NCBI RefSeq assembly: GCF_000744775.1 | Contig: NZ_JQMP01000003.1 | Coordinates: forward strand, 558,001-622,000 | DNA length: 64,000 nucleotides | Direction: 5' to 3' | Source of the DNA: Thermorudis peleae | Lineage (GTDB): Bacteria > Chloroflexota > Chloroflexia > Thermomicrobiales > Thermomicrobiaceae | In this document: positions 50,391-57,275 of the stretch, piece by piece | How the letters are laid out: every line of letters begins with the position of its first letter | How positions within the stretch are numbered: position 1 is the stretch's first letter | Made by a program: the position numbers and the translations under genes | The notes under the pieces: generated by a model | Databases searched by the model: none | Told to the model about the DNA's origin: nothing | The model's input: the letters and a program-made list of their open reading frames with translations, nothing else

Positions 50391-51389
50391 CTAACTGCGC
50401 TCACGGCCAACTTCATAGTGCACGTTGCGTGCCTCGAAGAAGTTGACCAGTTCTGGTACATCAAGCTGGGTGGCCATCCACTTGAGTGGGTTAGGATTGC
50501 CAAACGCGGCCGGGAGCCCGAGTTCCTCGAGACGCCGGTCAGCCACGTAACGAACGTAGCCGTTGAGCGCGTCGGCGCTGAGCCCGATGATCGGCTGCGG
50601 CAGGACTGCGCGGTTATACCGCTCTTCGAGTTCCACTGCCTCGAGAATGAGCTGCTGGACGGTTTGTGCAAATGCTGGCGTCATAATCTCTGGATGCTCT
50701 TCGAGTAATGTTGTGATCAGGTGGATGCCGAACGAAAGATGCAGGCTCTCGTCCTTCAACACCCAATCGACGATACTGCACAGCCCGCGTAGCAGGTTTC
50801 GCTGTCGGAAGGCCAGTGCCAGCGCAAAGCCTGAATAGAAGAAAATTCCTTCCAGCACAACGAAGAAACCGATGAGGTTATGGCACAATCGCTGCACACC
50901 TTCGACTGTCGAAATGTCCGGCTCAACAAGCCATCCTTCGATTAGCCGACGCTGGAACGCCTCCTTGGCAGCGACATCGGGGTGATCGGTATGAAGCGCG
51001 AAGACCCGCGCTCGGTCGACTGGCAACGTCTTGATGACATATTCAAATGCCATAGTGTGGTTCGCTTCTTCCCAGGCCTGGCGCGCGAGGTAGAGCCGTA
51101 CTTCCGGTGCCGTGATTGGCCGGTAGAGCGAGAGGAGCAGGTTCGTCGTAACGAGCGATTCCATGGGATTGAAGAAGCCCAAGAACATCTCGACCGCTCG
51201 TCGCTCTTCATCGCTGAGTCGCTCGTGCCAGTCACGCACGTCATCATGGAGCGGGACTTCCTCCGGGAACCAGGTATTATGTTTGGCTTGTTGTACATGA
51301 GCATACGCCCAGGGATATCGTAGAGGGAAAAGCTCAACGGCAGCGAGTGGATCACCACCAAGGAGTGAGCGCGCTGGTGCTTCTGCCAT
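50391..51389 (-). CDS. nrdB: Ribonucleotide reductase R2, class Ic-type
   Basis: A 332-aa ferritin-like radical subunit. Metal ligands are E77 (NPMES), E108 and H111 (WEEANH), E180 (VVLEGIFF), and E214 and H217 (KDESLH). Two features mark it as class Ic: the first ligand is Glu instead of Asp, and the position of the radical tyrosine (four after H111) is F115. The spacings (77-108-111-115 and 180-214-217) match the Chlamydia enzyme (89-120-123-127 and 193-227-230), which uses a Mn/Fe centre. It lies 47 bp after nrdA on the same strand. Confidence 0.93.
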   Translation of the reverse strand: MAEAPARSLLGGDPLAAVELFPLRYPWAYAHVQQAKHNTWFPEEVPLHDDVRDWHERLSDEERRAVEMFLGFFNPMESLVTTNLLLSLYRPITAPEVRLYLARQAWEEANHTMAFEYVIKTLPVDRARVFALHTDHPDVAAKEAFQRRLIEGWLVEPDISTVEGVQRLCHNLIGFFVVLEGIFFYSGFALALAFRQRNLLRGLCSIVDWVLKDESLHLSFGIHLITTLLEEHPEIMTPAFAQTVQQLILEAVELEERYNRAVLPQPIIGLSADALNGYVRYVADRRLEELGLPAAFGNPNPLKWMATQLDVPELVNFFEARNVHYEVGRERS

Positions 51390-51436: not shown

Positions 51437-53773
51437 CTACTGGCAGCTCTCGCACGTGCCGTCGAGGCTGCAATGGGCGCCATTTGCGCTATGCATGCTG
51501 TTCTGTGCTAGCACGTCTTGCTCAGCGAGTTGCACCCACTGTGGGCGTCGCCGTGCCTTGTTCACCGCAACCGTCGACTGTTCTGCCTGCATGCGTGGCT
51601 GGACGAAGCAGTAATAGGTGCTCTTGAGACCTTTGCGCCATGCTGTGAGATAGACCTCGCTCAGCTGTCCAGGGCGGTCGGCATGGTGGTACAGGTTGCG
51701 GCTTACACCCATGTCAACCCACTTCTGGACGCGTGCCGCAACCTCAATGTAGGCTTCGGGCGTGATCTGGTAGGCAGTGGGGAAGCGGTCGACGAGATCT
51801 GGCGGGCATTCGGGAATCTGCCGTAGGTCGCCACGGGCTTCGATGAGTCGGGGCACGAGTGCGGTCCATAACCCGCGCTGACGCAAGCTCTCCACCAGCA
51901 CTGGGTTAATTTCAAGGAACTTGCCCGAGAGCGTCTGCCGGCTGAACACATTGCTGTAATACGGGTCGAGACTTGGTGTGGTCCCTGCGATCAAGGCAAT
52001 CGTTGCCGTTGGGGCAATAGCCATCACCGCGCCATTCCGCATCCCACGTCGCACGCGTTCCCGAACAACGTCCCAGTCCAGCCGCATGGTGCGATCGACC
52101 GCGATCGGCTGCTCGCGTCGCTCATCGAGTTCGGCGATGGTGTCAATCGGCACTTGTCCGCGTGCCCAGCGGCTCTGGGCGAAGGTTGGGAAGCTCCCGC
52201 GCTCGCCTGCGAGTTCGTGACTAGCCAAAATCGCGTGGTAACTCACGAACTCAGCGAGCTGATCGGCGAGTTCAGCTGCTGCTGGGGCGTTGTACGACAG
52301 CCCTTGCCGGGCTAACACTTCAGCAAAGCCCATCATCCCCAGCCCAACTGGTCGATTCCGCAGATTGCTCGCTTCGGCTCGTGGTGAGGGATAGAGGTTG
52401 AGATCGATCACATTGTCCAACGCTCGCATGGCAAGTCGCACTGTGTGAGCCAGTTGATCCCAGTCCATCGTGCCGTCGGCTCGCAGGTGGCGTGCGAGGT
52501 TCACACTGCCGAGGTTGCAAACGGCAACCTCCTCGTGACTTGTTGGCAAGAAGATTTCGGTGCAAAGATTGCTTGAGTGGATCATGCCGGCCAACATAGC
52601 GCGATGGTTTGCCGTGTCCTTGAACGTGATCCAGGGATGGCCGGTTTCCATGAGGCTGGCGAGTATCTGCAGCCAAAGTTCGCGAGCTGGCAGGCGCCGC
52701 CAGGCGCGGCGCGGTAGCTCGCCGTTCGCAGCCTGTTGGCAGAGGGTGCGGTAGCGCGCGCTGAATGCTTCGCCGAACAACTCGGGGAGTTCGGGCGCAA
52801 CAGCCGGGTCGAAGAGGTACCAGTCGGCATCAGCCTCGACACGTCGGAAGAATTCATCGGGGATCCATAGCGCAGTGTTGAGCGACGGTGTGCGTCGATA
52901 GGGATCGCCAGCATTGCGCCGTAGGTCGAGGAAGGCTTCGACTTCCAGGTGCCACGGCTCGAGATAAACACACATGGTGCCGCGTCGCCGTCCACCTTGG
53001 CTCACTGAGGCAAGCAGTGCGTCATAGAGGTGGAGGAAGGGAATCAGGCCACCACTCGTACCGTTGATGCCCTTGACCGGTGAGCCAACCGCGCGAATCT
53101 TGCTTACTGCCGTGCCGATCCCACCCGCATATTTGGCGAGCATCCCAAATTCGTGTGCCGAACTGAGGATGCTTTCCAGACTGTCTTCGACTTCAGCGAG
53201 GTAGCAGGAAGCCAATTGGTGATGCGGTGTGCCGGCATTGAAGAGCGTTGGCGTGCTCGGTACGTAGTGCAGCGTACTCATCAGCTTATACCAGCGGAGC
53301 GCCCACTGCTCACGTTCCCCGCGTGGTTCGCGCAACGCCAAACCCATGGCTACCCGCATCCAGAGCGCTTGCGGGGCTTCAAGAAGCTGCCGCGTTTCGG
53401 GATGACGCACAAGATAGCGATCAGCCAGTGTTGCCAGTGCAACGTAGCTCAGAAGGGCATCCCGTTCCGGGACAATGGCTTGCGCTAGCAACTCAAGGTC
53501 GTAGTCAAGTAGGGCTGGATCAAGCGCACCGACTTCGACGCCGTACCGTACATACGTCGGAAAGTAGTCACGGTAGGCAAGGTGTGGCTGCCCAGCAATC
53601 TCCAATGCGATCTTCGCCAGCAACGCTCGCGCGGCGTCAGCCTGTGCTTCAGGCTCTTCTGGCAGGCGCTGGAGGGAGTCAAGAATGCGCTGTTCGAGCC
53701 ACGCAGCTGATGGTACGGCCTCAGTGTGCAACGACGTCGCCAGCGATGCAGGTGCGCGGAGTTCTGCAACCAT
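51437..53773 (-). CDS. nrdA: Ribonucleoside-diphosphate reductase large subunit
   Basis: A 778-aa class I R1. Substrate-site residues are intact: Asn, Cys and Glu in HSSNLCTEI, the redox Cys in VAVCNLGSVNLA and the first redox Cys in HQLASCYLAEVEDSLES. The allosteric loop is AKYAGGIGTAVSKIRAVGS and the C-terminus ends in a CESC pair that would re-reduce the active site. No ATP-cone is visible at the N-terminus, so the overall activity switch seems absent. Start at ATG 53773 behind AAGGGAGG. A cobalamin riboswitch precedes it. Confidence 0.95.
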   Translation of the reverse strand: MVAELRAPASLATSLHTEAVPSAAWLEQRILDSLQRLPEEPEAQADAARALLAKIALEIAGQPHLAYRDYFPTYVRYGVEVGALDPALLDYDLELLAQAIVPERDALLSYVALATLADRYLVRHPETRQLLEAPQALWMRVAMGLALREPRGEREQWALRWYKLMSTLHYVPSTPTLFNAGTPHHQLASCYLAEVEDSLESILSSAHEFGMLAKYAGGIGTAVSKIRAVGSPVKGINGTSGGLIPFLHLYDALLASVSQGGRRRGTMCVYLEPWHLEVEAFLDLRRNAGDPYRRTPSLNTALWIPDEFFRRVEADADWYLFDPAVAPELPELFGEAFSARYRTLCQQAANGELPRRAWRRLPARELWLQILASLMETGHPWITFKDTANHRAMLAGMIHSSNLCTEIFLPTSHEEVAVCNLGSVNLARHLRADGTMDWDQLAHTVRLAMRALDNVIDLNLYPSPRAEASNLRNRPVGLGMMGFAEVLARQGLSYNAPAAAELADQLAEFVSYHAILASHELAGERGSFPTFAQSRWARGQVPIDTIAELDERREQPIAVDRTMRLDWDVVRERVRRGMRNGAVMAIAPTATIALIAGTTPSLDPYYSNVFSRQTLSGKFLEINPVLVESLRQRGLWTALVPRLIEARGDLRQIPECPPDLVDRFPTAYQITPEAYIEVAARVQKWVDMGVSRNLYHHADRPGQLSEVYLTAWRKGLKSTYYCFVQPRMQAEQSTVAVNKARRRPQWVQLAEQDVLAQNSMHSANGAHCSLDGTCESCQ

Positions 53774-53830
53774 GGTGTCCTCCCTTCAGTGTGAGTTCAG
53801 GCGGGTGACGTGATGCCGATGGTCACACCA

Positions 53831-53868
53831 CGCCGTGTGTTCCCGGGAATGCGCATGCCCACACGGCG
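53831..53868 (-). promoter_or_regulatory. Possible expression platform of the B12 riboswitch
   Basis: CGCCGTGTG (53831-53839) and CACACGGCG (53860-53868) form a perfect 9-bp stem about 60 bp upstream of the nrdA start, with the palindrome TTCCCGGGAA in its loop. It lies between riboswitch core and gene, where a switching hairpin is expected. No T-run is seen. Confidence 0.35.
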
Positions 53869-53965
53869 ACGGCATCCGTGTTGTCGCGAGCCTCCACGAC
53901 CGACAGTGCGGTCATCTGCGGCACGCTGCATTGCGCCCACCCGCGAGACGCAATCGCAGCCAGAG

Positions 53966-54140
53966 GGGAGCGAGTCGGTCTTCGGGCTTGCGGATCACCC
54001 TACTTGCCGCGTCTTCCCAGCGGAGTTTCCGCCAGTGACACGCGAGTGCGCCTGGGGTGACGCCTCGCTGCGGCGTTCGTCCCCGCTCACCGCTGCGGGG
54101 CAGCGCCGGATTTGCACCGGACTTCCCGGCACTCGCTCCC
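53966..54140 (-). promoter_or_regulatory. Cobalamin (B12) riboswitch upstream of nrdAB
   Basis: Read on the reverse strand, the closing stem GGGAGCGAGT (54140-54131) pairs with ACTCGCTCCC (53975-53966). Inside are the conserved GGGAAG, then CCGGTGCAAATCCGG and CTGCCCCGC (54127-54095), a CACTGG and TGGGAAG pair, and the B12 box GCCCGAAGACCGACTCG (53989-53971 region). These are the core elements of adenosylcobalamin riboswitches. It would lower nrdAB expression when B12 is plentiful, as in bacteria that also own a B12-dependent class II reductase. Confidence 0.9.
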
Positions 54141-54147
54141 GGCCGGG

Positions 54148-54194
54148 CCACAAGATGCTGAGTGTTTCTCGCTGTTTGCCCCTGCATCTTGTGG
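54148..54194 (-). other. 11-bp hairpin at the 5' end of the nrdAB leader
   Basis: CCACAAGATGC (54148-54158) and its exact complement (54184-54194) flank 25 bases, at the predicted 5' end of the transcript just before the riboswitch core. It may stabilise the message or form an extra outer helix. Confidence 0.5.
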
Positions 54195-54203
54195 TCATCC
54201 CCT

Positions 54204-54232
54204 AGTCTAGTCAGGCGTCAAGGAAGCGGCAA
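54204..54232 (-). promoter_or_regulatory. Promoter of nrdAB
   Basis: On the reverse strand TTGCCG (54232-54227), 17 bp, then TAGACT (54209-54204), each four of six matches. The start would be near 54197, directly at the hairpin. The 608-bp gap 53774-54381 is thus leader, riboswitch, promoter and the copA 3' hairpin, with no other gene. Confidence 0.4.
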
Positions 54233-54320
54233 GGGTTGCCAGGGAGGCAAGGAGACATAATCCGAGGCGGGCTTTCGCTCGTCTTCAGCGGATTTGCTGC
54301 GAAGGGCCAATGGTGCTGCT

Positions 54321-54351
54321 GGCCAACCTGTCACAGTGTGGCAGGTTGGCC
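54321..54351 (-). terminator. 10-bp hairpin downstream of copA
   Basis: GGCCAACCTG (54321-54330) pairs with CAGGTTGGCC (54342-54351) around 11 bases, 30 bp after the copA stop. There is no T-run; the role is inferred from position. Confidence 0.5.
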
Positions 54352-54381
54352 ATGGTGTCGAGATGGCTTGACATCGACGGT

Positions 54382-56937
54382 TTAGGACGTGCGGGGTTGT
54401 AGGTGGGTGCTTGGAGCAGTGCCACAGTGCGTTGCTGAAAGACTCCGTAAGCGCAGCGAATTGGTGACGACGAAGACTGAACTGAAGGCCATAGCACCAG
54501 CAGCAAGCATCGGGTTCAGTAGCCCGACTGCAGCAACCGGGATAAGAATGACATTGTACGCGAATGCCCAGAAGAGGTTCCAGCGAATCGTCCGCAGCGT
54601 GCGCCGCGCTAACGTTAGCGCGGTGACTACGCCGCGCACGTCGCCGCCGATCAGGACGATGTCGCCGCTTTCAATTGCGATGTCCGTCCCAGTCCCTATC
54701 GCGATTCCAACGTCGGCTTGTGCAAGCGCCGGGGCATCGTTAATCCCGTCGCCAACCATGCCGACACGTTCACCTTGTGCTTGGAGCGTTCGTACGATCT
54801 CGGCCTTCTGCTGAGGTAGCACTTCCGCGATCACGCGGTCGATCCCGAGTTGGGATGCAATAGCCTTGGCCGTCGCTGTGGTGTCACCGGTTACCAGCAC
54901 AAGGGAAAGTCCCAGAGCACGAAGTGCCTCGACAGCCTCACGGCTGCCCGGCTTGAGGGTGTCAGCCAGGGCGAGGACTCCCACGACTTGGTGAGAGCGC
55001 GCGACAAGGACCGCGGTCTTCCCCTCGGCAGCCAGCTTGGCGACGATCGCCTGCGCTTCGCCGAGCGCAATGCCCTGCGACGCTAAAAATCGTGCATTAC
55101 CAACTAGCACTGGCGCGCCCTCGATCGTGGCCTGAATGCCAAGGCCCGGTTCAGCTTGGACATTGGTAACCGTCCCGTCTAGCTCAAGCCCACGGGCTTG
55201 TGCCGCGGCGACGATGGCCCGACCAAGCGGGTGCTCACTGCGGGATTCCGCCAGCGCTGCTAGTTTCAACACAGATGCCTCGTCCAGCTCGGCGAGCGGC
55301 ACCACGTCTGTCACTTCAGGTTTGCCGTTCGTCACCGTGCCGGTCTTGTCGAGTACGAGCGTCGTGAGCTGAGCGGCCCGCTCAAGTGCCTCACCACCTT
55401 TGATCAGCACACCGTGACTCGCACCAGTACCAGTTGCGACGATGATCGCCGTTGGGGTTGCAAGGCCCATTGCACACGGGCAAGCAATAACGAGCACAGC
55501 GACAGCGGGGAGCAATGCTTGGCCAACCGTGCCGGTGGCGAAGTACCAGCCGACGAATGTCACGGCAGCGACGGCCATAACAACTGGGACAAAGACGCTG
55601 GCCACGCGATCAGCCAGAGACTGGATCGGTGCCTTTGACCCCTGCGCCTGCCGCACGAGCCGGATAATTTGAGCAAGTGTCGTCTCAGCGCCGACCCGCG
55701 TTGCCCGAAGAGTAAACGTCCCTGTCGTGTTCACGGTGCCACCAAGGACCTGGCTGCCCGGCGCTTCCTCAACGGGGATGCTTTCACCGGTCATCGCGCT
55801 TTCATCAACGGCAGAGCGACCTTCGACAACAATGCCGTCAACCGGGATCCGCTCGCCTGGCCGCACAATGACGAGGTCACCCGGCCGGACCGCACTCGCT
55901 GGTATGTCGACCTCTCGCCCGCCGCGGATAACATGTGCCGTGCTCGGTTGCAGCCGTACCAGTGCACTGACTGCAGCTGACGTTTGTCCACGAGCGCGCC
56001 GCTCCAGGTAGCGCCCCAGCAGAATCAAGGTAATGATCACCGTTGCCGTGTCATAGTACAGCTGCATACTCGCCTGATGGTGGAGTCGCGAGGCGGTGAG
56101 ACGTGGCAGGATCGTGTTCCATGCTGAGTAGAAAAATGCCGCTGTCGTGCCTAAGCTCACCAGCGTGTCCATCGTGAACTGGCCATGCCGCAGGTTCTTC
56201 AGTGCCGTAGCATGGAAGCGCCAACCAGCGTATGCCCACACTGGCAACGACAGGGCCAGGAGGACGAGGTCAACACCTGGCCAGTGCATGAAGAACATGT
56301 TGAGTACGGCAACAGGAACTGTCAGGATGGCGCTGAGGAGCAAATCACGACGCAGGCGCGCAAGCTGTTGATCGTTCGATCCTTCTGTTTCGGCTGCTGC
56401 TTCCGTTCCACTTGGTTCATCAACGACCTGCGCGTGATAGCCCGCAGCTTCCACCGCGCGGAGCATCGCATCGATCGTAGCCTGGGTGGGATCATAGTGT
56501 ACTTGGGCTTGCTCAGTTGCGAGGTTGACGGTTGCCTCGGCAACGCCCGGCACGCGCTGTAACGCCCGTTCGACGCGTCGCACACAGGAAGCGCAGGTCA
56601 TACCCTCGATCGCAAGTGTCACGATCGCAGCATGCGCCTCTCCGGCGTCACTGTGTTGGTCAGTGTTGTGTACCTCCAACACCCGCGCGCCGTAGCCTGC
56701 TGCTTCGACTTGCTGCACGAGGGCCGCTTCGTCTACTGCTGTGGGATCAAAGACAACGCGAGCTTGTTCCGTCGCAAGGTTGACCGATGCCTGTGCTACG
56801 CCTGGTAGCTTGCTCAGCGCACGTTCAACCCGACGGACACACGAAGCGCACGTCATTCCTTCAATGGCGAGCACTGCCTCTGCTGGTGATCCTGTTTGTT
56901 GTTCAGGTATTCGGTCGCGCGTTTCCGTCGTGTTCAT
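54382..56937 (-). CDS. copA: Copper-exporting P1B-type ATPase
   Basis: An 851-aa heavy-metal ATPase. Two N-terminal metal-binding domains each carry GMTCASC (Cys 30/33 and 115/118). Eight hydrophobic segments follow. The transport motif is [13 protein letters not shown], the phosphorylation site [10 protein letters not shown], the ADP-site SEHPLGRAI and the hinge [21 protein letters not shown] with two CASC domains indicates Cu(I) export. It starts two bases after the csoR stop codon, so regulator and pump are translationally coupled. The stop is 54382. Confidence 0.96.
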
Positions 56938-56939
56938 CG

Positions 56940-57275
56940 TTAGCTCACACTCTGGGTAAATCGCTCAACGGCCTCCGTCAGCTCCTGGATGAGCATCTCG
57001 CGCTCTTCTGGTGCAGCGGTTAGCAAGCAGCCGCGGATGTGGTCTTCCAGGAGGAGCAAGCCGATGCTGCGAGCTGCGGCAATGACCGAAGAGAGCTGAG
57101 TTAAGACGTCAACACAGTAGCGATCTTCTTCGATCATGCGTTGAATGCCTCGCACTTGCCCTTCGATACGGCGTAAACGGGCAAGAATGCGTGCTTTGTC
57201 CTGGCGATACGAATCGACTCGCTTCACAGAATGCTCGCTGTGTTCAGGTGGCATGCTGTCCATCGTATCCTCCAT
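56940..57275 (-). CDS. csoR: Copper-sensing repressor CsoR
   Basis: A 111-aa helical DUF156 protein. The copper ligands are C54 (RYCVDV), H79 and C83 (DHIRGC), the X-C-H-C pattern of Cso[21 protein letters not shown] is the conserved basic helix that contacts DNA. It should leave DNA when it binds Cu(I), turning on its own gene and copA. A matching operator overlaps the promoter. Start at ATG 57275; an in-frame Met lies at residue 5. Confidence 0.95.

Follow-up and report, generated by a model that had tools for sequence, protein, structure and literature searches.

In Streptomyces coelicolor the ribonucleotide reductase operon nrdABS is preceded by a B12 riboswitch, which acts at the level of transcription (Borovok et al. 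2006, as described in PMC4991794). The nrdDG genes of Desulfovibrio and Desulfuromonas are likewise preceded by B12 elements (PMC545781), and Sun et al., whose genomes include Chloroflexi, list a regulon category made up of isozymes of enzymes that depend on B12 (PMC3766115). For the metE leader of Priestia megaterium, mutations have established that a kissing loop stabilises the P13 hairpin, and that the 3' strand of an opened P13 pairs with the OFF hairpin (PMC10653944). B12 riboswitches on B12-independent reductases are already known, then, from Streptomyces and from deltaproteobacteria; that the present locus adds another lineage, together with modest new comparative detail, is well supported. 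In the literature that we searched, no paper was found to treat this leader, nor the control of class Ic enzymes in Thermomicrobiales.

The locus lies in the window, by which we mean the whole 64-kb stretch of DNA analysed. It resembles S. coelicolor nrdABS, a parallel drawn by an earlier reading made from the letters of the window (the sequence-only reading) and borne out by PMC4991794, in that nrdAB is led by a predicted AdoCbl riboswitch and shares its genome with nrdJ, with the B12-independent reductase as back-up. It differs in belonging to another phylum and in having no nrdS after nrdB, where the S. coelicolor operon includes it. The logic is also that predicted for Desulfovibrio and Desulfuromonas, in which the B12-independent isozyme would be off and NrdJ used when B12 is present, although the target there is the anaerobic class III reductase and here a class I enzyme. 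Whereas transcriptional control has been demonstrated in S. coelicolor, control in the window is a prediction, built upon the following features.

54204–54232, minus strand: predicted nrdAB promoter, with −35 TTGCCG (54232–54227), a 17-bp spacer and −10 TAGACT (54209–54204)
54148–54194, minus strand: 11-bp hairpin (54194–54184 with 54158–54148), predicted to open the mRNA, immediately before P1 of the aptamer
53956–54151, minus strand: aptamer of a cobalamin riboswitch (RF00174), its core conserved in class relatives
54099–54095, minus strand: L5 loop CCCGC, within the aptamer
53988–53977, minus strand: B12 box AGCCCGAAGACC, within the RF00174 match
51437–53773, minus strand: nrdA (778 aa), encoding the large subunit of a class I ribonucleotide reductase (TIGR02506, 656.8 bits; PF02867, PF00317)
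50391–51389, minus strand: nrdB (332 aa), encoding the small subunit, of class Ic type (Glu77, Phe115)

An Rfam scan of the whole 64-kb window gave a single match, to the cobalamin riboswitch RF00174 at 54151–53956 on the minus strand (75.3 bits, where the gathering score is 31.5; E 9.8e-17). The match covers model positions 1–189, end to end except for one side arm, and its 3' end at 53956 lies 182 nt from nrdA. The sequence-only reading had recognised a B12 riboswitch here from its core helices and B12 box; the covariance-model (Infernal) match that it proposed as a check agrees, and both the B12 box AGCCCGAAGACC and the C-rich L5 are present. The missing side arm, at model positions ∼22–44, is absent from all six family aptamers, that of the window included, and present in most class relatives. 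As the full model still matches, its loss does not exclude membership of RF00174. The leader RNA is predicted to bind AdoCbl or a related corrinoid.

The predicted −35 hexamer begins at 54232, the end coordinate that the sequence-only reading had given for the leader. Each of the six leaders from the window genus and its sister genus has the pattern TTGNNN-N17-TANACT, 11–13 nt before the hairpin, and the nrdAB mRNA is predicted to start near 54197; a consensus promoter scan on its own did not call the nrdAB promoter. The hairpin itself, described before as an extra 11-bp stem at the 5' end, is found in each of the six family leaders, with 97% of pair cells kept and four pairs altered on both sides. 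Since this exceeds shuffled and slid controls, the hairpin is genuinely conserved; at the start predicted for the mRNA it may act as a cap against degradation or as a support for P1. The promoter, the covariation of this hairpin, and a P13 whose loop is complementary to L5 are new anatomy beyond the sequence-only reading.

The two genes are separated by 47 nt. NrdA matches only the two core Pfam domains, and an ATP-cone domain was not found. In NrdB the first metal ligand is Glu77 and the radical tyrosine is replaced by Phe115, residues that give the protein the class Ic label by sequence, with a predicted Mn/Fe cofactor. The closest PDB structures, 1syy, 4d8f and 2ani, which we take to be the class Ic R2 of Chlamydia trachomatis, agree with this signature and with the class Ic-type enzyme named in the sequence-only reading. 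Over 101 NrdB proteins compared, the first ligand and radical site were Glu and Phe (E/F) in 71, Asp and Tyr (D/Y) in 25, and Glu and Leu (E/L) in five (L018, L026, L051, L100 and L121); several of the Glu/Leu operons also have a cobalamin riboswitch.

The Streptomyces literature (PMC4991794) speaks of class Ia, whereas the residues in the window are of class Ic. In a wider survey of 80 NrdA loci from GTDB genomes, our own model placed a riboswitch before 11 of 46 E/F, 2 of 3 E/L and 5 of 25 D/Y operons; Rfam confirmed all five model-positive loci among those rescanned. The E/F cases are from actinomycetes (Mumia, Jiangella, Actinotalea, Prauserella, Saccharopolyspora, Kribbella, Nocardiopsis and Umezawaea) and from one MAG each of Bacillota, Clostridiales and Planctomycetota. 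Since every riboswitch-preceded actinomycete NrdB in the survey (8/8) is E/F, class Ic does not set the window case apart: nrdAB operons led by a B12 riboswitch occur widely, and many of them, in several phyla, encode class Ic enzymes.

Within the class, NrdA relatives were present in 30 of 150 genomes, and at 22 of the relatives' 29 loci Rfam detected a cobalamin riboswitch in front of nrdA; our own model added one more (L032, E 9e-4). Among the six remaining loci, the sequence upstream is almost nil at two (L012 and L014) and short at one (L024), and the other three (L013, L019 and L023) gave no riboswitch match despite ∼0.7–1.5 kb of it. Most class nrdA leaders with enough upstream sequence thus carry the riboswitch. 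One of these three loci, L013 (genome G033), which has no match within ∼1.5 kb upstream, encodes an NrdA with an N-terminal extension, and its genome has nrdJ. Family f12 (L027, L028, L029, L031 and L033), with genomes of 6–7 Mb, has AdoCbl-II or marginal RF00174 aptamers before nrdA, and in place of NrdJ_Z it has RTPR-like class II genes that score below the curated cut-off. That the same logic appears with two subtypes of aptamer and with class II enzymes of two kinds suggests repeated selection, and the rule that a B12-free reductase is off when B12 is present would extend to Thermomicrobiales and to much of class Chloroflexia.

The B12-dependent counterpart is encoded in the window genome (assembly of 2.93 Mb, 97% complete) by a complete nrdJ of 1135 aa; a genome with no class II nrdJ would have spoken against the sequence-only reading. 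Every family genome tested has nrdJ, as do most in the order, and different NrdJ_Z genes occur in f8 and some others; three genomes of the order, all fragmentary (G081, G099 and G113), yielded no class II gene. The nrdJ of two relatives, L153 (G011) and L154 (G065), contains intein-like in-frame insertions, two of them in the latter; one of the form NPC|VTGDTLI...VVHN|CSEY sits at the active-site region in relatives, and the nrdJ of the window genome is free of such insertions.

The window genome gave no match to cobJ, the marker of corrin-ring synthesis, and its B12 is therefore probably imported. A candidate uptake system is led by the one other cobalamin riboswitch of the genome, an RF01482 match of 51.2 bits that lies outside the window (L036:2439–7851, on G000 C3). 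It precedes an alpha/alpha-toroid (SCO2321-like) secreted protein, an SCO2322-like protein, an unannotated hydrophobic protein, presumably the permease, and ECF-type ATPases; the toroid protein presumably recalls the transcobalamin fold. Dependence on uptake is probably general, with cobJ above cut-off in only one of 46 class genomes. We also considered whether genomes with riboswitch-led nrdAB are B12 auxotrophs and those with nrdJ only are B12 makers, and rejected this division on that count of cobJ and on its absence from nrdJ-only relatives too.

The region between the aptamer and nrdA contains the features of a switch, as follows.

53930–53954, minus strand: P13 hairpin of the expression platform, stem and loop conserved after P1 in relatives
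53944–53940, minus strand: L13 loop GCGGG, within P13, complementary to L5 CCCGC
53853–53926, minus strand: predicted alternative helix, P13 3' flank (53926–53920) with 53859–53853, putative ON state
53812–53876, minus strand: nested 9-bp hairpin (53868–53860 with 53839–53831) inside a 7-bp outer helix (53876–53870 with 53818–53812), putative OFF state
53807–53834, minus strand: 10-bp hairpin (53834–53825 with 53816–53807), incompatible with the 9-bp hairpin; putative ON state
53779–53784, minus strand: nrdA Shine–Dalgarno sequence GGGAGG

P13 follows P1 directly, and its loop is able to pair with L5. A kissing loop between L5 and L13, with the 3' side of P13 as the switching strand, would make this leader like those of P. 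megaterium metE and Escherichia coli btuB (PMC10653944). Consistent with such a role, enforcing P13 flips the predicted ensemble of the window leader (at 37°C) from the hairpin at 53834–53807 to the nested 9-bp hairpin. The probability of the alternative helix falls from 0.57–0.77 without enforced P13 to ≤0.25 with it, that of the 10-bp hairpin falls from 0.72–0.81 to 0.08–0.29, and that of the nested 9-bp hairpin rises from 0.11–0.23 to 0.66–0.89. A 9-bp hairpin before the start codon, as the sequence-only reading had reported, does exist, and was seen only in the window genome.

The output of the platform is less clear. The metE leader ends in a terminator and that of btuB in an RBS hairpin, whereas the window leader shows neither clearly. 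The Shine–Dalgarno sequence is unpaired with probability 0.45, compared with 0.52 when the upstream sequence is shuffled, and so is not more hidden than in shuffled leaders; nor is the RBS clearly hidden in either fold, with P13 enforced or not. Pairing of the start codon region by CGUGGUGU (53832–53825) with ACACCAUG (53778–53771), a helix of 8 bp, was rejected at an ensemble probability of ≤0.04. An intrinsic terminator was rejected too: no GC-rich hairpin with a U-tract occurs in 53700–54500, and no hairpin of the leader is followed by a U-tract. With the RBS not clearly hidden and no such terminator, the output step in the window is left without support. A search for an NrdR box in the window found none at ≤3 mismatches; NrdR is encoded in the genome.

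The sister genus, by contrast, does have an RBS hairpin. There P13 is followed by a strong hairpin that holds the RBS. In four of five leaders the RBS is paired nearly throughout, and the sequence of the hairpin varies between species while the pairing is kept. In two of these leaders (L008 and L010), when P13 is not enforced, the P13 region pairs with the anti-RBS strand instead; with P13 enforced, the RBS hairpin is still formed. The downstream half of the window platform has diverged from that of the sister genus.

We consider it probable that the nrdAB leader is an AdoCbl-sensing OFF switch, and, within the limits of what sequence can show, the interpretation offered by the sequence-only reading is supported. 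Counting against the OFF switch are the lack of support for its last step in the window genome, the three loci with upstream sequence but no riboswitch match (L013, L019 and L023), and the three fragmentary genomes that yielded no class II gene. Transcription would start near 54197, with the stable hairpin capping the mRNA. With B12 plentiful, the aptamer would bind AdoCbl, L5 would kiss L13, and the stabilised P13 would deny its own 3' flank a downstream partner; the hairpin of the OFF state could then form, NrdAB would not be made, and DNA precursors would come from the AdoCbl-dependent NrdJ. With B12 scarce, P13 would open, its 3' flank would pair downstream and the leader would refold, permitting synthesis of the O2-dependent, B12-independent NrdAB. 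The last step is presumably RBS sequestration in the sister genus.

For the window genome the last step may instead be transcription, the nested 9-bp hairpin or Rho stopping RNA polymerase when B12 is bound, in which case the function would still be OFF by B12. P13 promotes the 9-bp hairpin, which lies ∼45 nt upstream of a Shine–Dalgarno sequence that is not clearly sequestered, and Streptomyces nrdABS is itself under transcriptional control (PMC4991794); the want of a U-tract behind any hairpin and the clear RBS hairpin of the sister genus argue the other way, and we place this route somewhat short of an even chance. A wider proposal is that the family riboswitch is a structural variant, in which the side arm has been lost and the 5' hairpin, abutting P1, joins in aptamer folding, whilst the output of the platform has changed between the sister genera, away from RBS sequestration in the window genome, with the P13 switching strand kept. 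We regard this as rather unlikely.

It is very unlikely that the aptamer is a decayed remnant which no longer senses B12. The missing side arm could be read in this way, as could the score, which at 75 bits is lower than in most class relatives (up to 121 bits); but the same variant occurs in two genera with the B12 box, L5, P13/L13 and peripheral domain intact, and a decaying element would not keep those parts. That B12 turns nrdAB on is likewise very unlikely. One activating corrinoid riboswitch is known, in which P13 and the terminator are mutually exclusive (PMC10653944); here P13 shares no strand with the putative OFF hairpin and uses its 3' flank to compete with it, in the manner of the repressing type, the sister-genus RBS hairpin stays formed with P13 enforced, and there is no obvious benefit in B12 inducing a B12-independent isozyme. 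As an AdoCbl-sensing OFF switch, the leader would provide a class Ic reductase with a testable means of being turned off.

Directly upstream on the same strand (54382–57275, minus strand) are genes for a CsoR-type repressor and a copper P-type ATPase (copA-like, with two HMA domains), and an inverted repeat at ∼54321–54352 may end this csoR/copA operon.
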